Part shown: piece after piece, positions 15,740 through 39,800 of the stretch
Position numbering within the stretch: position 1 is the stretch's first letter
Layout: each line of letters begins with the position of its first letter
Assembly (NCBI GenBank): GCA_024220505.1
Contig: JAKZZE010000014.1
Span: 186,001 to 250,000 of the forward strand
Source: Rhizopus arrhizus
Taxonomy: Eukaryota > Mucoromycota > Mucoromycetes > Mucorales > Rhizopodaceae
Direction: 5' to 3'
DNA: 64,000 bases
Translations under genes and position numbers: made by a program
Notes under the pieces: generated by a model
Seen by the model: only the letters and a program-made list of their open reading frames with translations
Told to the model about the DNA's origin: nothing
The model's database searches: none

Positions 15740-16352
15740 ATGGACCATTCTACTGATACATCCTTTATACACAGACAACATCATGAAGATGCATTACCAA
15801 GATCTTCAATCAGTCTTTCTACTTTACATCCATCCACACCTGCTCCCACGTCCCCACATAGTACTTCAATGCCAGTTCTACGCCAGTATGCGAGTGAGGG
15901 TAGCGCCACCAGTCTCCACAGTAGCAGGAGCAGCACGACTGCAGTGATTAGCAACAGTAGTAGTTTGAGTAGCATTATAAGCAGTGACGAGGATGATGAG
16001 CGAGGTATCGCCATATCAGGTAGAAAAGCTATCGTGCCACCTACTGTCAAAATCATACAACACAACAAAAATCAAAACAATTTGTACGAGGATATTTGGA
16101 TGGACTCTCCTATTTTTAGAGAATATTTACATACTCTAGAAAATTGGCTATCCCATTATTTAACTTGGCTAGAAAAAGTGGAACAGTGCAGACAATTGGA
16201 AATAGGTAAAGAAGTTGTAGCTGCAACTTGAGTGGAAAATCTAATCTTGTGTTTTCTAGCTTACAATAAGTCGATTTCATTGTTACACGAACAGACCAAA
16301 TTTGTATTAAGTCAGCCATTTTATACAGCAGAGGAGTGTGATAAACTGAATT
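15740..16352 (+). pseudogene. RasGAP gene, 5' fragment upstream of the DIRS insertion
   Basis: Exon 1 is 15740..16205 (phase 1) and exon 2 starts at 16260. The coding frame runs cleanly to GAGTGTGATAAACTGAATT at 16352, where the retrotransposon begins; the same frame resumes at 20753. Seen: a Ser/Thr-rich N-terminus, an acidic patch (SSDEDDERG) and the start of a helical BAR-like domain (SPIFREYLHTLENWLSHYL, SISLLHEQTKFVLSQPF). Without excision the frame reads into element sequence and stops at 16427..16429. It is called a pseudogene because the insertion is in an exon; an intact copy may exist in other nuclei. Confidence 0.8.
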
Positions 16353-16393
16353 CAAGGTCGAAGGTATTCTCGCAAGAATTACCTGAGACCGTC

Positions 16394-16514
16394 GGACAAA
16401 CACAAGGAAGAATAATATATATGCTTTAATCATCTTATTGGTTTATTGAGCGGAACGTTAAAAATAATACAAATAAAAGATAAGATTTTTATAATAATTG
16501 TTCCTTGATCATCT
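16394..16514 (+). repeat. DIRS left inverted terminal repeat
   Basis: 121 bp, beginning GGACAAACACAAGGAAG and ending GTTCCTTGATCATCT. It is the reverse complement of 20617..20737, with one mismatch noticed (GATCATCT versus GATTATCT at the inner end). The 41 bp outside it (16353..16393) are unique to the left end. Confidence 0.93.
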
Positions 16515-16559
16515 TTTCCGCTCAGGTCATTACCGTCAGATTTGATAATTCACTTACAC

Positions 16560-17534
16560 ATGTCTCATAATCAAGAAACTACTGATCTTACTACCCTGCA
16601 ACAACAATTGCAAGAAACTCGCCAACTATTAGAACAAGTAATGGCTTCACAACAGGCTGCTATGCCTCAAACCACACCGGATCCACAGATGATGATGGAT
16701 TCGTCACACCTTGCTCCAAGCCCTTGGCACTCTTTGGGTACTCGTCCCCAATTTGACTGGTCCCCTCCTGAGATTTTGGCCCAGGGCTTACAATTAGACA
16801 GAGATCTCTTCTCAACGGAGCACATCCTTACCGATGATGAACGCCGGGAGCTGATTGAAGCTTACCCTGCGCTGCGCAATGTTGAGTACAAACCTCCTTC
16901 CACCTTGCCAACGGCGCACCGTTGCATGAATAAGGCCCAACAGCTGGAGGATTCTTCCTTGCGTGATCTTCAGTACTTGCTCTCTGGTGTCTTCCGCCCC
17001 TTGGATGTCTTGGGCAATGAGATGTTGCAGTCCACCAGTGTACCTTCTGAGGCACTCGAACGCCACCTTGGCATACTCAACCACGCTCGGACATTGCTCA
17101 TCAACGCTTGTGCAACTATTACACATAATAGAAATAAAATCGCTATGCGCGCAGTAAATCCTCGTTTTACTGTCCCTGCCCCTGGTGCTCTGAAGAAATA
17201 CACTATGGCTAGTGAAGATTTTCATCAAGCAATCACACAACAGACCTCCGCAGCCAAGGCACTGCGCGAAGCTCGTATTGGTCCTCGCTATTCTAAACGA
17301 TCTCCCAATGAAAAATTTTCTCGACCTACCCAATTTGGGAATAGCACGCTCGGTACCAGCCACACTTCCTCTACTGCCGATACGCAGCCGTTTTTTCGGC
17401 CAGGTCCGTCGTCTCAGCACGGCGGTTACACGCACCAATACTCCCACTCCCGTCAACAGGGCAACCGCCAAGCAACGTCCACTGGCGCCCATCCAAAGAA
17501 CAACAATCCCTTTCGGCAACAGAGTCGCCAATAA
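16560..17534 (+). CDS. DIRS ORF1, gag-like protein
   Basis: 324 residues from the ATG at 16560; a longer in-frame upstream extension would need a non-ATG start. It begins with a Gln-rich coiled-coil-like segment (TLQQQLQETRQLLEQVMASQ), has a helical middle part (RHLGILNHARTLLINACATI) and a basic, Ser/Gly/His-rich C-terminus suited to nucleic acid binding. No CCHC knuckle is seen. Its position immediately inside the left repeat and ahead of the RT ORF is that of DIRS gag. Confidence 0.8.
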   Translation: MSHNQETTDLTTLQQQLQETRQLLEQVMASQQAAMPQTTPDPQMMMDSSHLAPSPWHSLGTRPQFDWSPPEILAQGLQLDRDLFSTEHILTDDERRELIEAYPALRNVEYKPPSTLPTAHRCMNKAQQLEDSSLRDLQYLLSGVFRPLDVLGNEMLQSTSVPSEALERHLGILNHARTLLINACATITHNRNKIAMRAVNPRFTVPAPGALKKYTMASEDFHQAITQQTSAAKALREARIGPRYSKRSPNEKFSRPTQFGNSTLGTSHTSSTADTQPFFRPGPSSQHGGYTHQYSHSRQQGNRQATSTGAHPKNNNPFRQQSRQ

Positions 17535-17539
17535 CACCT

Positions 17540-19462
17540 TTGGCGGCTCATTCCCAGCCTCCTGTAGGCGGTCGACTCCAACTGTTCTCACCCCATTGGG
17601 ATCGACTTTTTCACAACAATTGGGTGAATACCGTCGTTCAACACGGCTTCAAAATACCTTTTCACACGCTACCACCTCTCTCAACAGACTTCACCCCTCA
17701 TCAACATCAATTGTCCAACGACCAACAACTTCAATTGGACCAAGCCATTCAAGACCTACTCACCAAACAGGCGATCGAACCTGTGCCCCACCACCAACCG
17801 TCTCCAGGTTTTGTCAGCCCCATGTTTACTATCCCGAAGAAGACTGGCGGCTGTCGACCAGTGTTCAATCTGCGCACACTGAATCAATATGTAGATTGCC
17901 CTCACTTCAAGATGGAAACCATCCAGCAAGTCTCTCTTATGGTACAACCTGGCGACTACATGACATCAATCGATTTGTCCGATGCCTTTCTTCACCTTCC
18001 AGTCCACCCAGAACATCGACCCTATCTGCGCTTCCACTGGAAAGGCTCGGTCTACCAGTTCAAGACAACACCCTTCGGTCTGTCTATCGTGCCTTACTGG
18101 TTTACCAAGATAACCAAGCCCATCTTAGAGTGGGCTCGTCAGCAAGGTATCCGTCTGAGTGCTTATCTCGACGACTGGATCATTCTAGGCAAGACAAAAG
18201 CCGAAGCTATGAGGCACACACAGTTGATACTCCAATGCTTGACGTCTCTGGGATGGCTGATCAATTTGAAGAAGTCTCAGACTCAACCAACACAAACCTT
18301 AGAGCATCTTGGCTTCGAATTGGATACACAAACGATGACGGCCCGCTTGCCTGGCAAGAAGCTTCGGGATCTGCGAAAATCCATTCAGCAACTGATAAAA
18401 CAACCTACATCAACTCCCCGCACTATACAGAGTGTTATTATGCGGATACAAGCAGCAACTTTCGCGATATTTCCTGCGCGACTTTACACTCAACACTTGC
18501 TGCAATTGAAGAATCACCTCATGAAGTCTCACCCAGACTGGGATCGTCCACACTTGTTGTCCAAAGACAGCATCCAGGAACTACAATGGTGGCTCAAGAA
18601 CCTCAAACAATGGAATGGTCGATCTCTTCTTCCTTCAACACCAGAACATACACTCTATGTCGATGCCAGCAACACAGGTTGGGGAGGTGCCTATCTAACT
18701 CAACGTGCCCATGGTTATTGGACCGCCCAGGAAGCCCAGATGTCCATCAACTGGCGAGAACTGAAAGCCGCCTTCCTTGCCCTCCAAGCCTTCCCTCACT
18801 TGACCAACACAACAGTCCTGATTCGCACGGACAACACCACCTCCTTGGCTTACATCAACAAGCAAGGGGGAACGAAATCATTCAGCCTGATGACTCTTGC
18901 AACAACCCTGTGGAAGTGGTGCCTTCAACGAGGTCTAATGCTCATATCCAGCCACGTATCAGGTATACACAACTGCGAAGCGGACTACGAGTCAAGAAGA
19001 TCTTTTACAAAAAATCTTTGGCAAGTGAAACCGGAAGTGTTCAACAGCCTCCTTCAGTCTCTATGGGGTCCTCACGGGGTGGATCTATTTGCAGACAGGA
19101 CAAGCAACCTCCTAGAAAAGTACGTGTCGTGGAAACGCGATCCAGGAGCATGGAGGATCGATGCTTTCACCATTCCTTGGAACAACCTACGGAATCCGTA
19201 CGCCAACCCCCCCTGGAACCTGATCTTGCGCTGCCTGGAAAAAATTCAGAGAGAGAAAGTCCCAGTAATCACACTGGTAGTACCTTATTGGCCGACGGCA
19301 ATCTGGTTCCCCCTACTACATCGTCTAGCGCTTCATCCTCCTCTTTTCCTGTCACACAACGACATACAAACCACCACGACACTGACGCCATGGCCACTTC
19401 AGCCTCAGTGGAAGCTCTCCGTTTGGAGGCTCTCGGGGCTTCATCCTCAACACCAGGACTAA
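17540..19462 (+). CDS. DIRS ORF2, reverse transcriptase-RNase H
   Basis: Open for 640 codons in the frame +2 relative to ORF1, starting 6 bp after its stop. There is no ATG near the beginning, so expression probably needs frameshifting, reinitiation or a spliced RNA (inference). RT motifs: MFTIPKKTGGCRPVFNLRTL, DYMTSIDLSDAFLHLPVHPE, FKTTPFGLS and the catalytic box AYLDDWIILG (YLDD). RNase H: YVDASNTGWGGAY, NWRELKAAFLAL, IRTDNTTSLAYINKQGG and HNCEADYESR carry the acidic residues. The C-terminal block (DLFADRTSNLLEKYVSW, YANPPWNLI, VVPYWPTAIWFPLL) is the extra domain typical of DIRS pol proteins. There is no integrase or protease. Confidence 0.92.
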   Translation: MAAHSQPPVGGRLQLFSPHWDRLFHNNWVNTVVQHGFKIPFHTLPPLSTDFTPHQHQLSNDQQLQLDQAIQDLLTKQAIEPVPHHQPSPGFVSPMFTIPKKTGGCRPVFNLRTLNQYVDCPHFKMETIQQVSLMVQPGDYMTSIDLSDAFLHLPVHPEHRPYLRFHWKGSVYQFKTTPFGLSIVPYWFTKITKPILEWARQQGIRLSAYLDDWIILGKTKAEAMRHTQLILQCLTSLGWLINLKKSQTQPTQTLEHLGFELDTQTMTARLPGKKLRDLRKSIQQLIKQPTSTPRTIQSVIMRIQAATFAIFPARLYTQHLLQLKNHLMKSHPDWDRPHLLSKDSIQELQWWLKNLKQWNGRSLLPSTPEHTLYVDASNTGWGGAYLTQRAHGYWTAQEAQMSINWRELKAAFLALQAFPHLTNTTVLIRTDNTTSLAYINKQGGTKSFSLMTLATTLWKWCLQRGLMLISSHVSGIHNCEADYESRRSFTKNLWQVKPEVFNSLLQSLWGPHGVDLFADRTSNLLEKYVSWKRDPGAWRIDAFTIPWNNLRNPYANPPWNLILRCLEKIQREKVPVITLVVPYWPTAIWFPLLHRLALHPPLFLSHNDIQTTTTLTPWPLQPQWKLSVWRLSGLHPQHQD

Positions 19463-20457
19463 CAGCTATGTCTACTTCTCTGCTACGAGCACCACGTCTG
19501 ATGGATACTACCACCAACAAATCATATAAACGTGGTCAAATCCTTTTCATCGAGTGGGCTCTCGCTCAAGATATTTCGCTTACGTCCTTCACCGATGTTC
19601 ATCTCACCAATTTCCTTTCGGAAATGTTTCAAGTCCGTGGCTACAATCACTCCACCATTTGTCTATTCCGATCGGCAGTCACTCACTTACATGAACAGCC
19701 CTCCTCTTTACGTTCAAGCACCATCGTTAATTCGCTTGTAGCTTCTCTTAAGTCCAAGGCTCCTCCTCAGCCAATTCATCGCCCCACTGTTGATATGAGC
19801 CCTTCACTTAAAGCAGTACGCCTAATTGATATCAACGATCTGTCTACTCCGCTGCCTCATCTACAGCAAAAATTGGCGTTTCTTTTGGGTATGGCTGCCT
19901 TCTTACGGCCTTCGGACCTACACAGAATTGATTTTGCAACGGCAAATATCGAAATTGAACGCAATCGCCAGTGCCTTTCCTTTCAAGTTGTAGCACCTAA
20001 GGAACGCCGTGCTGGCCGTCGTATCATCAAACCTTTCCGCGTATACAGCCACCAAGATCCTTCATTGTGTCCTGTTGCTACTTTTCAAGCCATCAGAGAT
20101 CGTCTTGCTCACCTGATTCCCCAACCTACAGTTACTTCTTTCTTCGTCAACACCAGTATGACCACGCAAATTGTCAAGGTCACAACTATTAGTTCTTGGA
20201 TACGTCGATTGATTCGGCTTTCTACCAGCGAACCACGTGTCAACCTTCGCTCGTTGGCGTCTTCTGCTGCTCTCCGTGCTGGCATCGACCTTGATGATAT
20301 TATTACTCTTGGAAACTGGTCGTCCTCCACTGTATTCGAACAACATTATCGACGCGAGCATCTGACTAACGTCGACTTTACCAATACAGTCCTCCCAGTA
20401 CCGGAAGATCAGGAGATATTTCATGATGCAAGTTCCAATTTTGATAACAACCTCTGA
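19390..20457 (+). CDS. DIRS ORF3, tyrosine recombinase
   Basis: Overlaps the end of the RT ORF in another frame; ATG codons at 19390 and 19468 are both possible. The recombinase inserts the circular DNA copy. Seen: an N-terminal SAM-like helical part (SYKRGQILFIEWALAQDI, LTNFLSEMFQVRG), then the catalytic half with LGMAAFLRPSDLHRID (first Arg), VVAPKERRAGRRI (candidate Lys in the beta hairpin), VNLRSLASSAALRAGI (second Arg; the usual His of HxxR is Val here), LGNWSSSTVF (Trp in the second His/Trp position) and EQHYRRE (nucleophilic Tyr). The ORF ends 2 bp before the internal complementary region. The frame is open back to 17212, across the entire RT gene. Confidence 0.9.
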   Translation: MATSASVEALRLEALGASSSTPGLTAMSTSLLRAPRLMDTTTNKSYKRGQILFIEWALAQDISLTSFTDVHLTNFLSEMFQVRGYNHSTICLFRSAVTHLHEQPSSLRSSTIVNSLVASLKSKAPPQPIHRPTVDMSPSLKAVRLIDINDLSTPLPHLQQKLAFLLGMAAFLRPSDLHRIDFATANIEIERNRQCLSFQVVAPKERRAGRRIIKPFRVYSHQDPSLCPVATFQAIRDRLAHLIPQPTVTSFFVNTSMTTQIVKVTTISSWIRRLIRLSTSEPRVNLRSLASSAALRAGIDLDDIITLGNWSSSTVFEQHYRREHLTNVDFTNTVLPVPEDQEIFHDASSNFDNNL

Positions 20458-20459
20458 AG

Positions 20460-20577
20460 AAGCATATATATTATTCTTCCTTGTGTTTGTCCGACGGTCT
20501 CAGGTAATTCTTGCGAGAATACCTTCGACCTTGAATTACTATTTAGACCAGAGGACAAACACAAGGAAGAATAATAT
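20460..20577 (+). repeat. DIRS internal complementary region (ICR)
   Basis: 20460..20533 (74 bp) is the exact reverse complement of the left terminus 16353..16426. 20538..20577 (40 bp) is the exact reverse complement of the right terminus 20713..20752. Between them is AATT (20534..20537), the same 4 bp found at both insertion junctions. The ICR therefore equals the two element ends joined head to tail, which is the template logic proposed for DIRS circle formation. Confidence 0.95.
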
Positions 20578-20616
20578 CACCCACCCTCCCTTACCCTACG
20601 GTAATGACCTTCGCTT

Positions 20617-20737
20617 AGATAATCAAGGAACAATTATTATAAAAATCTTATCTTTTATTTGTATTATTTTTAACGTTCCGCTCAATAAACCAATAAGATG
20701 ATTAAAGCATATATATTATTCTTCCTTGTGTTTGTCC
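20617..20737 (-). repeat. DIRS right inverted terminal repeat
   Basis: 121 bp inverted copy of 16394..16514. The outer 15 bp (20738..20752, reading TCTGGTCTAAATAGT) are unique to the right end, as expected for the non-identical DIRS termini. Confidence 0.93.
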
Positions 20738-20752
20738 TCTGGTCTAAATAGT

Positions 20753-23700
20753 AATTGGATAGATAAAGAGAATAAAGTTGAAGATGATGACATGTGGGAT
20801 AATGAGGATATTAGAATAATTTTACGTAAAGACTATACATAAGAAGCCATATTTTTTTTATTGTTTTGATTCTCATATATTCAGTTTAGCTTATTTAAGA
20901 GAGCATGGTGCAAAAATTAAAGAAACTTTATCTGTAAGATTTGCACATTTAAACAACAACTTATAGATGATATTCATTTCTATTTTATGTAAAGTGCTAT
21001 CAAGATGTCATTTCAGCCTCTAGGACAAAATTTATTCAACTATCTCATACTTATTGTGCAATCCAAAAATCAAAAGCATCACAAAGTAATCCTAAACCGT
21101 TAGATGTGAGTTGGTGAATATATACATTTTTATTACTAAATTGGATTGAAAAAGAAAACCAACTAATTTCTTTCTCAGGAAACTGCAAATAGATTACATA
21201 AAGCAAAGCGTTCACTATCCAATTTGTTGGTAGATTATATTCGATCTTTATACAGTTTAATTCGCTCTACAAGAGAGCTACTGAATGAAAAGGTAACCCA
21301 TAGATATTAGTTTTTTTTTTTTTTTTTTTTCCTTTTTGCCTAAATTCATTCATTTTTTTTCAGTTGGCTCCTTTGTTTGAAGGATTAGAATCTGATAAAC
21401 ATAGAAATTTGAAAGCTCTAGAAGAACTTGTCTTGACTGCCACTGAGTTTATATACAATATTGATACAGAGTCCTCCTTATTTGAAGAAGAGGTAATTGT
21501 TGCAATTTGCTGTATAGCTTTAAGGATAAAATTTATTATATTTGGTTATTAGTGTAGTAGTGATCAACTATCGCTTTATATCAGTGAAAAATCGGCTTCT
21601 TATTATCGCTCGCTAAATTCGGTTAATGACAGATCATATACTATTTCTACATCATCAGACATACCATTCTCAAATAAGCCTACAGTTGTGGTAATCTCAT
21701 AGCAGCGCATTAGTATTAAAAGTTATCTCATATCTTTAATGTAGCCAAAATATAATAGTATCGAGTTGTTATTTACTCAGCAATCACAAATTATTCATCA
21801 AATGGGAACCAGAGGATATTTATTGATAAAGAAAAGAAGCACAAAAGATATAAACACAACACCAAACTATACAGGAAAATGGGAAAGGTATTTTTTTTAA
21901 TGAGTATCTTTTATTTATTCACATTTTGCTTCAAGACACTATTTTTATATATCAAAGGACGATGGATATTTAAAGCAATACAAAAATCAAAGCGTAAGTC
22001 AAATAGAAATTGAACATAGAATAGACTGTTAACAACTCATTAAGGTCTCTGTTGCTGTGGTCAACTTGAAACATGCTGCTATTCAAGCATTGGATTTTGA
22101 AAAACGAGATTATGTTATTCAAATATCAGGGGCAAGAGATAATTTTTGGTATATATAAAAAAGGATAAAAAGGAGCACTTGTTGATTTAATCTTTATGAA
22201 GTATTCAACTTCAGGCGGAAACAGCCAAAGATTATTCAGATTGGTTAAACGCGTTGAGTTCCTGGAATAGTAGTAAAATAATCAGAATGAGTTCGGTAAG
22301 TTGTATTTATTTAACCAAAACAAAAAACTGAATAATTATATTGTAGGATCTTCGATCAAAACACTCGACAACTAGTGGGAATAGATTTCTTACAAAAAAG
22401 TCAATTTTATCTGTTGAGAGTGTAGCTGCTATTGAAAGTTTGGTAATTAAAAAATAGCATGCAGAAAAGTAATAATATTTATTTAATGTTGTTTAGAGTA
22501 CAATATCATGCAAAAGCAATGGTAGCATAGACCTAGGAAGCAGTGACACTTCATTGGGTTATCCTGTTCCTATAACTGAATGTTCTGTCAATTGTTGTGG
22601 TACTACGATTGGTAACGCGACAGTACAACTCACTGGCATATTTAAAACATACAGTAAAAAAAAAAAAAACTAATATGAAACAAGGGGATAATATAAATGA
22701 CTTTTATTATTACAGAGTCATGCATCAGAAAACTAAGTTGTAGCTCTCATCACACTGGCAGTCTTTGTGTGGTTTATGTATCTTTATTAGAAAATGACAT
22801 TTTACATTTGCAAACAGAAACGGACAATAACGAATTCTTTCACAGACCCATTCATCTCTCATCTATGGCACCTCAAGACATTTATTCCTTTTCAGATTCT
22901 GTTCATCATATGCGGTATTGTATCGTTATCCGCCCATCACCCAAGGAGACATATCATTTGATGACGTGTAGTAGAGTGCAGCGAGACACATGGCTCATTC
23001 GACTCAAGCGAGGCTGTTCACAGCCTGTTGCCTTGCCTAGAAAAGTTCAATGCCTAACTATACAAATAGGCGAAGGCCGAAAGATTCAGACAAAGGATTC
23101 ATTCCTGTATTGTGATGTTGCAGTCGATCATGAAATCAGAGGACTCACTGGTTCTTTAAGAAGGATGTCTAACCTCTTTTGGAGAGAAAACTTCAAGTTT
23201 ACGTAAGCGTATATATAAACATCTTGTGTACAACAAAAGCTCAATGTGCTTTCTAGAGATATTCCACAGGTAAGCCATGGCCTTACCGTCAATCTATACT
23301 CCAAAAATTGTAAAAATGATCGAGACACAATCTATGGCCATGTCTTTATACCAGTAGACCAACTCAATTCAAGCCAAGGGATACAAGAAGAGTGGTATGA
23401 GGTTCGCAAAGATACCAATAAACACCGCACATTTGCCTCTCTGGCCGGGCTTGGCTCTGGTAGCACATCATTAGGAGAACTACGTATTAGTATTTTATTG
23501 GAAGAACACCAGGTGTTTTCATTATCCACCTATCAACCTTTGATCAATGTCTTGAAAGGATTTCATCATGAGTTGATCTATGATATGGCCAGAAAGACTT
23601 CAGACATGCAAGCATTAGCACGAAACTTGTTGAGAATCTATGAGGGAATGGGTCTTACGTTAACATGGATCAAGTCCTTGATTGACTATGAAGTTGATTC

Positions 23701-33801: not shown

Positions 33802-36800
33802 TTAGGTATGTCTTAAACACCAATCAATGAAATCTTCCAGTGCAGAGGCATGCTGTTCCTTTGCAATCATCTTGATCACTTTAATCTTTCTTTCTAATTC
33901 TGATTTGCTTTGGGTACAAACAAATTCCCCACTGCATCTACTACAATTTTTTGTCAAATTTCCTACTCTCACTGTATGGCATCGACCACAGACTAAATCC
34001 TGGAGCTGATAAGATTTTAACCATTCTTGTACTTTTGCAATCAACAAGCCTTCAATAAACACCTTGTCATATTCTGATTGACATTGTTTACATCGCCAGG
34101 CTTTCAACTGTCCATCTTCAGACGTCATGTCTGGATCTCGGCGGAAATCCAGATCAACCACATGATTACAGTTTAAGCAGCAAACATCCACCAGCTTATA
34201 AGTTTCGATTGGGTTTTTGAATTTTGCTTGTTCAGAAAAATCACTCAAGTCTGCAGTCGCCTTTAACAGGTCGCGCTTGAGAATCAAAACAGTTTCCTCC
34301 ACTCTTCCATCAAGTTCTAAAACACCGCATACGAGCTTAATAAATTCAACAGCTTCGTTGATCAATTCAGTAGAATGGCTGGCAGTGTATTTACTAAGCC
34401 AACGAGACATCTTTCGTGTTAGGTCTATTTGTATATATTCCCTTAAATGAATCGATCTGTCATCATTCGTGGGTTCATCTGTTTCCATATCCTGTACTGT
34501 AATCTCACGAGGATACTTACGCTTGTACTGAGTCATAGTGTAAAGATAGAGTGAGGTATAGTGGCCAAATTTGGCTCTTGCTTCCACAGGTAAATGATTT
34601 TCAATATTCCACTGCTTTGTAATAGCAGGCACACCATCCACATAATTACCCACCAAGACTCCGGAAAAGTTTTTTTCGTCCATCCAAATCAGCACATCCC
34701 AATAGACTCGGTGTTTCATGACCAGTGCTTCAAACAGTTGCTTTCTATCAATCGTTCGGTAAAGATATTCAAAATAAGAGATTGCGCTTTCAGAAGTCTC
34801 CTTTGTGGCAGTAACCAAGATTCGATGAAAATTGGCAAAGACAACTTTTGCGCCTAAACGTTTCAGTTCGGCAATCAACTGCATAAAGACCTTCTTCATG
34901 AGATTATGGATTAGGTCATAAAGACAAGGATCATACATGCATGAATCAGGGCTCATCAACCATCGTTGGAAAGTGTCAGCCAAGTGCTCTCCAATCTTGT
35001 TGCCTCCTGAAATAGAATTATCCATCCAACGATGTACGGTTGACCGAAGAATATAAAGTGTTTTGCTAGACACCATCCCACCACCAAAACTAGATGCGGC
35101 GACAACTGTACCTTTTGTATATTCATCCAGTGTATGTGATGCGTTATCAAAACTATTGTTTCCTGCTGTACCCTCCAATTCATTAATCACGGGCGAAACC
35201 AACAAGGTGTTTAAACACAGCCGAGACAAATCAAAATCAGCACAGACCGTTTCGTAAGCGCCTTGAAAGTTGAGCTCTGGGTTCACAAGTTCACCTGTGA
35301 TTGAAATCGTTTCGTCTTCTTCACGACCACCCAAGTCGGGTAATTTAGTAGTTGACCACCAAATGATCATGTCGTTCTGGATCATGGTTCGAGCAAATAT
35401 GACATCAGACATAAACACATAGGGATCTTCGGGTATATTGCAAAATGGAACATTGGCATAGCGAGCTTGAGATAGTCTTTCATCCACTAAGGAACCGAGC
35501 TCCATATAGTATTTAAATACTCGCTTCAGCATTGGCTGAACCCAGTTCAGCGCGTCAAATTTCTTATCTTGCTGGGCTGTAGGAACTCTTATATAAGGAA
35601 ATTCAGAGAGCATACGGGCATATTGAATGAGGTGAACAGACGATCTTGGAGAATTGATAGCAAGAATTGTTTTTCCTCTTTTTGCATCTTGGTATTTCAA
35701 AAGAGCCTTGTTTATTGCCTTGAGTGCTTCTCGTTCATTAGAATGATAGCTTGTTTCAAAATCCATCGTATTTGGTGCTTGGACAGCATCGTCCATTGTT
35801 CTTTCTCTATTCATGGCATGGTATGCTTCTTTGTAGATACGCGCCACATTTGGCATTTGCTGACTGTTCTTGTTTAATCCTACTACAAAAATTTGGGAAG
35901 TAGCAAGCGTAGAACCAATAAGAGCAAAGAAGTGACGATTGTCAGAGTGAGCATGAAAGAGATAGAGATAGTGAAATGCTTTGGGATCACCCATATACTT
36001 GGAACTGAGTTCAGTTCTGTTTCTTAATTCAGACAAGCTGAATTGGTCATCTATGCGGCGACTTGCTGTACCACTCTTCTTCTCAAACTGACAGACAGAA
36101 CCCAAGTTTAAAATGGCACGAACAATGAGAGGTATTTGTGTTTCAAAGAAGGATTCAGTAGAAGGATGATTAAAGATGCTTGCAGATTTGGCCACTTCCA
36201 CTTGAAACTCATTTTCGGGCATTGTTACTCGGAAGAGATTCAAGCTTGTATATGATCGAGGCAACGTACGAGAGCACTTTACTAATTCACAAGTTGGATT
36301 TTGATCCTTGACTACATTATAGTTATCCTCTGTACAATTTATATAAAACATGCGTGGAATAGTCAACCTAACACTGTATAATTGATCTTCGACCATGACC
36401 CACAGCTTGCACTCTCCTGGTATGTCAGTTTCTGCGATCTGAATCACTTCCCACAAACTGTTAACAAGAGAACCGGTCTGCCTTCTAAAATAATCACCAA
36501 CACCATTGAGTGAGCTTCTAGTGACTAGCGAGCTACCCAATTCCTCTCGGTTGTATGCGCGAATCATTCTTCTTCGTTTCCATTTTCGCTTCTGAAACTC
36601 AAGCCATGCAAGGTAATCTTCTTCTATATTAGGCATATTTTCAGGTCGATCTTCTTCAGGTAAAGGTGCTCTAAGTTCTTTTGAACGTTTGATTTGAAGT
36701 GGATCATCTGTGCTGTCCGACAATTTACGCTTTTTTGTCACCCTAGCTATTTTAGGAAGAAGACCGTTGGTTGCAGTATGAGATACATTCAACTCTTCAA

Positions 36801-39800
36801 TATCATCAATATCCATACTTTCTTCAAGTAATGGCTTTTCAGCACGAGAAAAAATATCGGTAATTAAGTACTGTCTTTGTGGGTCATTTTTTATCGCAAC
36901 ACGCTTAAACAGCCAATCGGGATGTCGAACTCGAGGTACAGGATTAGAAACTTTTTGCATAGCAGCAGGGATTGTAATCAATTTTTGAATAACGGAACCA
37001 AAACGATCAAGGTAATATTCCCAGTCTAGAATATCACGAATGTCAAATGTAGTTAAAGAATTATCTCCTAACCATTTACGCAGATAATGTCTTTTCACAC
37101 TTTCTTCTGATTGGAAGATAGCAATAGGAACGGCACGCTCAGAAACAGGAAGGCCATAGGGTCGAGCTGAGATAATAAAACTACAAGCCAAACCTTTATC
37201 CTTCACCATCTGATCACCCAAGAATTCAGCAAGACGCTTAGCTGTGCTAATCGAGGTCGATTTTTGTGTACCGTATTGTGCAAGTGATTTCGACATACTT
37301 CTGTTTTCTGCAATTAGTTCAAATAACTCTTCATCACTGATGTTTACAGCTCTGCTATACAACACATCCAGCCATCGATCAGCTACTTTGGCAACTGCAG
37401 AATAGCATTCTTCCAGTGTTTTGCCTTCTAAAAATACAGCAAAGATTTCTGTCTGAAAAATTTTGATAAGTTTCAGTTCACCACGACGCTTAACTTCAAA
37501 ACCCTTCAGTTCGGCAAGTGATCCATCCATATCAAATACAGCATATCTTTTTTTTAGTAACTTGTCTTCCTCAGTAGACGAAGGTAAAATCATTGCTCGA
37601 TAAGGACCATCAATTTCAAAAAAGATACTGTTTTCTTCACTAACAGAGTATTCAAATGTTTCAGGATTCACAAGACGTTGGTATTGCTTATTTGTATATT
37701 GTGCATGTACCAAATGATTCAACATTGTACATGGGTAATAAATACGAAGAGATTTTCCATTTTTTAAAGAAAAGGTAAATGTTTCGGGAAATGATTTTGG
37801 TAAAATACACCAAATACCATCTGTATCAAGTTCTAAAGGACGACCAAGACGTTCAACCAATCTACGAGCCATTTGAATAATATTAGAACCAGTTAGACAC
37901 ACAATACCAGCCATTTCCAATGAATGCCAACGAGCACCGGGTCTCATTACATAGCCATAGAAAGAGTTTAAAATACATTTGTGAGCCAATTGAAGAGAGT
38001 CGAACAATACAATCATGTTTTTAGCCTCCCCAATCTTGGTCACAGAGCCATCCTTGATTGCTTCGTCTAATTTTCCTTTCCAAGTTTTGTGGAGTCCTTT
38101 ATATTCATAACGACGATCACGGAATGCACGTACTGTTTCAATATAAAATGGATTTTCTCTTTGACAAATAATTGATTCGCGTTCTACAACTTTAGTCTCT
38201 TTTTGTTTAGAGTGAGCTTTTTTAGAGTAGTCTTTCAAACGCGCACGCAGCAGTGTTGCCTTTTCTTGTTCGCTAAGGGAAAACCAAGTTCGGCGTTGTT
38301 GATTTGCATATTTAGGAGGAAAAGTCTCAGTAGTAAGTTGATTTTCAATCATTCGGTATTCATCACGCTCTGCTGGAATGTATTCACCACGCCACAACCA
38401 TTTCATTCGACGATCACAGCTCTTTCCCGGCACGTTAAAGTCGCAAGTTGCGCACATGGCTTCGTCAATCATGGCATCAGGTTGAAGACGGTTTGTCAAA
38501 ATAATGTTGGGATACATGGCTGCAACATCCAAGTGATAGATTAAGGGTGGTTCCTGACGTATAGGCTTGTCTCGAAGAGCTTCCAATTTTTGCACAATTG
38601 CTTGCTTAACCTCTTCATAGTTGGCAATGTCTTCTATTTTCTTCTTTTCTTCTACTTCAATTGTAAACTTTAGTGCATGGTCCAATTGATCTATTAACTA
38701 TAAATATGGATATATAAGCATACATATATTCACACATCCTTGCTGTCATTACCTCTTGTGCTGCACTGGGATCGAGTTTAAAGTCTGAATTAATATCGCT
38801 TCGAAATACGCCAGCTTCCAGCGCTTCAACGTGTCCACCAACATAAGTCTCACTTTCTAAGAGATGTCCTTCATAAAAAGAATGTGCATCATCCATATGT
38901 TTGTTTGGTATAATAACATTCACTCTATATGCCTCAACCTAGAACAACTAGAATTAATTGTATGAAATAATAACTGATGACGATATATTACCATAAGCAA
39001 CTGTTCACAAAGTGTACCTGTACCCTTTCTTAAAACCTCGTCAGGGACCAAGGGAATAATATTACAGAGGGAGAAAATAAAGGGATGAACATATTTCATA
39101 TAAAGATAGTATGTAGCTACGGCATCTGAAACTGAATATTGGGCCAGGACTTGAGGTTGCTCACTTGCAAATCTAGTCATATCTTCGGGGTCTAATTCCA
39201 GTGGATTATAACCCAATTTGATGGTTGTTACTGCTTTCAAACCTTGGCTTCCGTTAGGCAAGTATGAATCACGCTGTACCCATCTAAATGCATCCATATG
39301 TGAAGCATGTTTACATTTGTATTCATCTTCGTCATCTTTATACACACCAATTTCGTGAAACATGTCTATTCCATGTACCTTGGCTCTTCCTTCTACAAAT
39401 GGCCAATCGAAAAAGTCACCGTTATATGTTACAAAGATATTTGGTTTGGCTCTTTGAACATGTTCAAAGAATCTTCTTAAAACACCTTCTTCGTTGTCCT
39501 CATTAAAAATTGTGAATGGCCCTTCAAACTCTGGCTTTGGTGTGTATTCAAAATCCTCAATGTCTTGGCTGACGATCTCTCTGTTTGTAATTAGATAACC
39601 CTAAATAGATATTCTCAATGACTCGCATCTAAAAAAGCAATAGATATTACCCTCCCGTCAATCATATAGGAAATCATCATAATTTGATCTATTGTGACGT
39701 CTGGAAATTTCAGTGGAAGTTTTGTTGTTTCAATATCAAAAGCCAGAATAACAGGTTCCGGACGATGAACAAGATCTTTGCGGTGAATGAGTTCAACAGT

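Follow-up and report, generated by a model that had tools for sequence, protein, structure and literature searches.

DIRS1-like retrotransposons of the Mucoromycotina have been described as RoDIRS1 from Rhizopus oryzae and MciDIRS1 from Mucor circinelloides (PMC3266345). Shared with the element reported here are an ATT start, an AAT circular junction and an internal complementary region (ICR) whose sequence is complementary to that of the two ends; they also have extensions on the left and on the right, inverted repeats and overlapping ORFs, as it does (PMC3266345). The mechanism stated there is recombination of a double-stranded circle through a 3-bp junction that is identical in the target (PMC3266345). 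For DIRS-1 of Dictyostelium, the available text of PMC5633606 proposes that the ICR remakes missing ends, in a model that has circular cDNA, and cites a preference of the element for its own copies as targets.

We analyzed a DIRS1-like element in the window, i.e. the whole 64-kb stretch of DNA studied here, together with related copies in the same genome (50.3 Mb in 41 contigs). Integration of DIRS elements is unsettled, the published circle with its 3-bp junction standing against a linear single-stranded cDNA, which one paper is said to have proposed. With many young copies in one genome, the exchange point could be fixed, the regularly shared sequence cut to one base, and loops recognized that mark one strand. 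Single-strand recombination on folded DNA occurs in integrons and some phages. In the integron reaction of attC with attI, as described in the available parts of PMC2727003, a structured single strand with little sequence conservation and with strand-marking mismatches is recognized, exchange takes place at one point and replication completes the product; a likeness of DIRS integration to this reaction is proposed below. The attC sites differ in having extrahelical bases (PMC2727003), whereas the site described here has 3x3 G.A loops, belongs to the recombinase of a fungal retroelement and would act as a single strand by our reading; neither attC boxes nor extrahelical bases were noticed in its folds.

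Anatomy of the element and its ICR

The features of the element in the window are as follows.

16351..20754, plus strand: DIRS1-like retrotransposon, 4404 bp by flush accounting; the crossover position, A^TT, comes from this and related copies (47 left ends, 36 right ends)
16349..16352, no strand: AATT at the left host junction; 16349-16350 on the host side, 16351-16352 on the element side; the A at 16350 is the ambiguous shared base
16353..16426, plus strand: left terminus, 74 bp, exact partner of ICR 20460-20533
16394..16509, plus strand: exact part of the left inverted terminal repeat, 116 bp
16560..17534, plus strand: first ORF, in the gag position and in a frame that is open from 16509; nothing matched in Pfam
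17345..19462, plus strand: second open frame; reverse transcriptase match, with RNase H and Dam methyltransferase below cut-offs
17194..20457, plus strand: third open frame; its last part, 19381-20454, matches tyrosine recombinases
20460..20577, plus strand: ICR, 118 bases, reading reverse complement of left end-AATT-reverse complement of right end
20468..20577, plus strand: predicted ICR hairpin, stems 20468-20492/20553-20577, 20496-20500/20545-20549 and 20504-20510/20533-20539
20534..20537, no strand: AATT within the ICR; crossover point 20535/20536
20622..20737, plus strand: exact part of the right inverted terminal repeat, 116 bp
20713..20752, plus strand: right terminus, 40 bp, exact partner of ICR 20538-20577
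20753..20756, no strand: AATT at the right host junction; 20753-20754 on the element side, 20755-20756 on the host side

The original prediction, made from the window alone, held that this is a DIRS element whose ICR copies its joined ends, with two arms of 74 and 40 bp that meet at AATT and the same AATT at both host junctions. Alignment within the window bore this out: the reverse complement of 16353-16426 lies at 20460-20533 and that of 20713-20752 at 20538-20577, each exact and each occurring only once in the window, and AATT stands at 16349-16352 and 20753-20756. With AATT included, the exact matches grow to 78 bp between 16349-16426 and 20460-20537 and to 44 bp between 20713-20756 and 20534-20577, which is far above chance expectation for 4.5 kb. 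The predicted circle junction had been given as left end-AATT-right end; in element orientation it should read right end-AATT-left end. The inverted terminal repeats are exact over 116 bp (16394-16509 with 20622-20737). The element and its ICR are of a known kind, inverted terminal repeats and an exact copy of both ends that overlaps at the circular junction being expected of DIRS1-like elements, and by its published description MciDIRS1 is 4402 bp with an ICR of 75-42, against about 4404 bp and 78-44 here (PMC3266345). No further copy was found in the 64-kb window apart from the element's own repeats, and an Rfam search of 16300-20800 gave no match at E up to 1.

The three open frames of the element overlap. 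Pfam identified a reverse transcriptase in the second frame (PF00078, E 4.7e-22), together with a weak RNase H match (PF00075, E 9.4e-4) and a Dam methyltransferase match (PF05869, E 0.0023), both under their cut-offs; reverse transcriptase and RNase H are features of DIRS1-like elements. The third frame matched Phage_integrase (PF00589) at E 0.03, under the Pfam cut-off, and had 109 homologues, among them proteins of 44-95% identity that either carry PF00589 or have Tyr recombinase domain-containing as their name. Those that bear names are mostly Mucorales proteins, the best being from Rhizopus arrhizus (95% identity over 92%), and the host is a Rhizopus-like fungus. The third frame thus encodes a predicted tyrosine recombinase, as is characteristic of DIRS1-like elements; a search of IMG/VR with this recombinase returned no relative.

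Copies elsewhere in the genome were assigned to group 1, which is the window's wider group, or to a second DIRS group, group 2, whose recombinases are 22-25% identical to that of the window. The original prediction also expected the ICR arms of other copies to match their own termini, and they did so: among 26 copies, the right arm (32 bases) equaled the copy's own right end in 25, the exception being the recombinant L092, and the left arm (54 bases) equaled its own left end in 24, L058 differing at 12 bases and L053 being unscored. This agreement is in line with the existing proposal that both ends are templated by the ICR. The central four bases of the ICR were AATT in 18/18 group 1 copies and, by family, GATT (3) or TATT (5) in 8 group 2 copies, irrespective of the host bases. 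Judged from these comparisons, the ICR is inherited and not acquired from the target.

The exchange point in host DNA

The window family has five copies in this genome, and over the 2874 element bases compared, those in the window, C20 and C25 were identical while that in C18 differed at one. Their left/right junctions read AATT/AATT in the window, C25 and C19, TATT/AATT in C20 and GATT/AATA in C18, so that 2/5 lack AATT at one or both junctions, which the original prediction had named as counting against it. Because the C20 and C18 junctions differ from AATT, the four bases are not a shared core. The crossover does lie inside AATT, as had been predicted, and can be placed at AA^TT (16350/16351, 20535/20536 and 20754/20755) with one shared base. 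An empty site of the window copy itself was not found in the genome, where its flanks are single-copy.

We numbered the junction p1 p2 ^ p3 p4 (in the window, A A ^ T T) and read it at 47 left ends (19 from group 1 and 28 from group 2) and 36 right ends (23 and 13, respectively), which cover part of the end matches listed in the genome. The left ends are what remained of 60 candidate rows after 13 that lay inside coding sequence were dropped, and they take in the left tips of the rearranged L134 and of two short insertions, L101 and L109. Left-end pieces L066, L070, L082 and L083 were dropped as having no match to the ICRs used, and L110, L111 and L115 as yielding no left end to the pattern. 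L069, read by BLAST only with a match that starts at p2, was not counted, and L130 was omitted as its flank repeats that of L129. These two DIRS left ends with a common host flank lie on one contig (C37:727818 and C37:657601) and reflect a segmental duplication or a repeat. The right ends take in L101, L109, L121, L135 and the irregular L092, while L086 and L090 were excluded as irregular; L014, L020-L023 and L030 are ICRs and not ends, and recombinase loci L035, L036, L037, L042, L050, L055, L056, L057 and L060 have no usable right end.

At the left ends, p3 p4 was TT, the element's own, in 46/47, and p2 was A in 46/47, whereas A makes up 42% of the flanking sequence (P about 2e-16); p1 was variable (A26 G12 T5 C4, n=47). 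The right ends (n=36), which were found by ICR match and read with family motifs containing the p2 A, such that ends without A would be missed, extended to that A and were followed by host T in 23, A in 12 and G in one. TT followed the right-end A in 19/36 and was absent from 17/36. The exceptions were L127 (G at p2), L103 (TG for TT) and L052 (G after the right end), besides the irregular L086, L090 and L092. From a single copy, the A at p2 is not assignable to host or to element. Relative to the flanks, the right junction has an excess of TT and p1 an excess of A, suggesting that some preference for a longer match persists. Altogether, these counts indicate that both junctions fall at one point, A^TT, and that the sole base regularly common to element and host DNA is this one A. 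A lox-like double-stranded site at the left end (GGTCGA..TATTC / GAATT..GAGACC) was also considered as the place of exchange and was rejected, as no junction fell in its spacer.

Three related copies, which sit in repeated DNA and belong to related families (none being the window family), could be compared with empty sites: GCTGA^ATTTGG for C39:1250k, TAAAA^ATCC for C12:1994k and TTTAA^ATCT, read in L050, for C6:1075k. In each case, rejoining was exact with no duplication and no loss, and the absence of a target site duplication is as in DIRS1-like elements. The C39 target shares just the crossover A, though AATT stands one base further along. The C39 and C12 copies are inserted in the same host repeat, which has 21 matches of at least 96% identity, its own place included. 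This repeat, struck twice by DIRS copies (C12, C39; L077, L078, L079), has parts in inverted pairs. For the copy at C1:496k, no continuous empty copy was found, only partial matches beside its own flanks.

The junction hairpin and the use of the ICR

Folding of six single strands, drawn from three relatives and from the window family, gave z-scores of -3.9 to -5.5, to which the inverted repeats as such contribute. In the window element, the crossover falls in the innermost ICR stem (20504-20510/20533-20539), and in group 1 this stem varies between GTAATTC/GAATTAC and GCAATTC/GAATTGC. Among nine group 1 junctions, 92.6% of cells were paired. Covariation in this group was weak: its score was reached by 12/500 shuffles, the number of doubly changed pairs by 90/500 and the number of pair types by 491/500, and the outermost pair of the crossover stem was broken in four families and the next pair in two.

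For group 2, 26 ICRs were prepared, leaving 22 distinct sequences once identical ones were removed, and the consensus fold consists of 9 bp, a 3x3 loop, 4 bp, a 3x3 loop, 2 bp, a 3x3 loop and 6 bp. With the outer 9 bp excluded, 93.9% of cells were paired over the inner 12 pairs, compared with at most 42.8% when partners were slid 1-3 columns as a control, and the double-change score was 2.17 versus a shuffle mean of 0.36 and was reached by 0/1000 shuffles. The consensus is without the innermost crossover stem, which single folds show in L084 and L087 and not in L091. The group 2 loops are themselves conserved: on the ICR strand, 162/198 loop cells were G.A or A.G, 12 had the potential for standard or wobble pairing, and each loop most often read GGA opposite GAA (9, 10 and 16 of 22). 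In group 1, GA stood opposite GA in 6/9 families as judged by eye. In loops of this type, sheared G.A pairs that follow one another are known to be stable, and on the complement strand the mismatches become C.T. RNA energies favored the ICR strand in 30/32 entries (the complement in L141 and L145), and DNA energies favored it in 28/32, with small margins in group 1 (the complement in F, G, L142 and L151). These alignments and folds show the ICR strand as a predicted, covarying hairpin with conserved G.A loops, strongly in group 2 and weakly in the window's group; we infer that its working form would be DNA and not RNA. A third, more distant DIRS family (L094, C13:758780-759380; 30% recombinase identity) has an ICR that folds into a long hairpin, and its right end stops at CTA^TTATAC.

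Four short non-autonomous insertions with differing flanks (L116, L117, L118 and L119, in C9, C18, C31 and C39) have right-type tips at both ends. When both strands were compared, the stretch of full-length copies that they matched began at the ICR crossover and extended through the right end to its final base. Both limits were exact in L116 (98.5% over 272 bases), whereas those of L117 (96.7% to its best copy), L118 (93.5%) and L119 (90.7%) lay within a few bases, being blurred by tip differences or chance host matches. In L101 (C18:456499-456782) and L109 (C41:569652-569926), from two families, a left tip is joined to an inverted 3' stretch that runs from the ICR crossover to the right end. 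The short right-right insertions derive from at least two families. Furthermore, a worn, 5'-truncated copy (L036/L014, C38:2045072) has the exact ICR crossover base as its 3' boundary. Since the short insertions end at the ICR crossover, the ICR itself serves as a recombination site.

Two other loci may be mentioned here. L120/L121 in C37 also has right-type tips at both ends, in a pair that lies further apart. In the old copy L028 (C14:759769), the right end comes almost directly after the recombinase frame, as though the DNA that separates two 33-bp direct repeats (window 20460-20492 and 20705-20737) had dropped out.

Readings of the exchange

We give a probability of about 0.5 to a joint explanation of these results that combines a template ICR, a flush one-base exchange at A^TT, a selected hairpin and, most likely, exchange of a folded single strand. 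In this explanation, the ICR would be the template that remakes both element ends in each round of retrotransposition, as in the published DIRS model, and the tyrosine recombinase would link the right end-AATT-left end junction with the host sequence at A^TT. The exchange would be flush on either side and share a single base (A) with the target, nothing being duplicated or lost. The junction would have been selected as a hairpin, with compensatory changes in the arms, G.A mismatch loops kept and the crossover in the innermost stem. Its working form would most likely be a folded single strand, namely first-strand cDNA in which the ends are joined and the junction has a sequence like that of the ICR strand; one strand would be exchanged, and replication would complete the product, as in integrons. 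The ICR-type strand would be cut AA^T, and a T that the target matches would follow the cut, as suits cleavage of this strand. If a tyrosine recombinase exchanged both strands across several bases, either edge of the gap should appear as the crossover in different descendants; one edge was seen, and a folded single strand that is exchanged once and completed by replication gives a single flush point.

Two integron-like features were observed, i.e. a single flush exchange point on both sides, which a stagger of 0-1 bp would explain too, and a site conserved as a folded strand, clear in group 2 and weak in group 1. We put forward, tentatively and at somewhat less than even odds, that DIRS integration resembles that of integron cassettes: a folded cDNA hairpin marked by G.A would be cut once at AA^T, one base would be tested and replication would complete the product, with the ICR acting both as end template and as a second site that yields short right-right elements. 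If true, single-strand recombination on folded DNA would extend from integrons and some phages to eukaryotic retroelements. In the accessible portions of the open-access literature, including PMC3266345, PMC3783388, PMC9210276, PMC5633606 and PMC6681497, we found no description of a one-base flush exchange, a G.A hairpin or insertions bounded by the ICR crossover, and titles and abstract openings there gave no link of DIRS with hairpins or attC.

Exchange of both strands, with a stagger of 0-1 bp or with an ordinary stagger and a uniformly repaired heteroduplex, would leave the hairpin to work in RNA, for packaging or end copying, and is an unlikely explanation that nevertheless deserves some weight. 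A 1-bp overlap yields junctions identical to those observed, the ICR lies in the sense strand and RNA energies favor that strand, as given above. However, known tyrosine recombinases cut 6-8 bp apart, and this reading does not explain why, in the window family, the crossover is located within an inner stem that is paired.

The published circle model, with a 3-bp junction (here ATT/AAT) identical in the target, gains from the right ends that do have TT after A and from the NTT reported at the start and end of 23/28 elements (PMC3266345). As a strict rule, it is contradicted by the 17/36 right ends without TT, and the C18 copy (GATT/AATA) is incompatible with any 3-bp core; where three bases shared with the target are stated for the published elements, ours regularly share one. 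At the C39 empty site, the nearby AATT went unused, which argues against a homology-seeking core of 3 or 4 bp, since such a core would be expected to use it. Of the elements in Table 3 of PMC3266345, 10/28 have a start triplet unlike their end triplet, and a 3-bp junction is thus not a safe defining feature. Among these ten entries, the first base is equal in eight while later bases differ (CTT/CAT, TTT/TGT, GTT/GAT), and 7/8 have a start that is exactly complementary to the ICR triplet, the remaining one being given with two bases; AcasDIRS1 and AmDIRS1 do not fit. An equal first base is expected if only that base is common, and the table, as far as its entries go, agrees with the one-base reading (PMC3266345). 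Altogether, we regard the 3-bp circle as rather improbable for these copies.

Similarly doubtful is the proposal that the stem covariation merely reflects inverted-repeat ends bound as double-stranded half-sites by the same recombinase. The stems do sit in the divergent part of the inverted repeats, according to the available text of PMC3266345, but half-sites fail to predict the non-complementary loops with their 162/198 G.A cells, and conservation of loops that do not pair is unexplained by homogenized repeats or duplex half-sites. Finally, a 4-bp AATT core common to element and target, as the original prediction had it, is very improbable and is refuted as a requirement by C20, C18 and the presence of A at p1 in just 26/47 left ends, although AATT is found at both junctions in 3/5 family copies (window, C25 and C19).

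Elsewhere in the window, long frames on the minus strand at 33802-39600 resemble a B-family DNA polymerase by eye.
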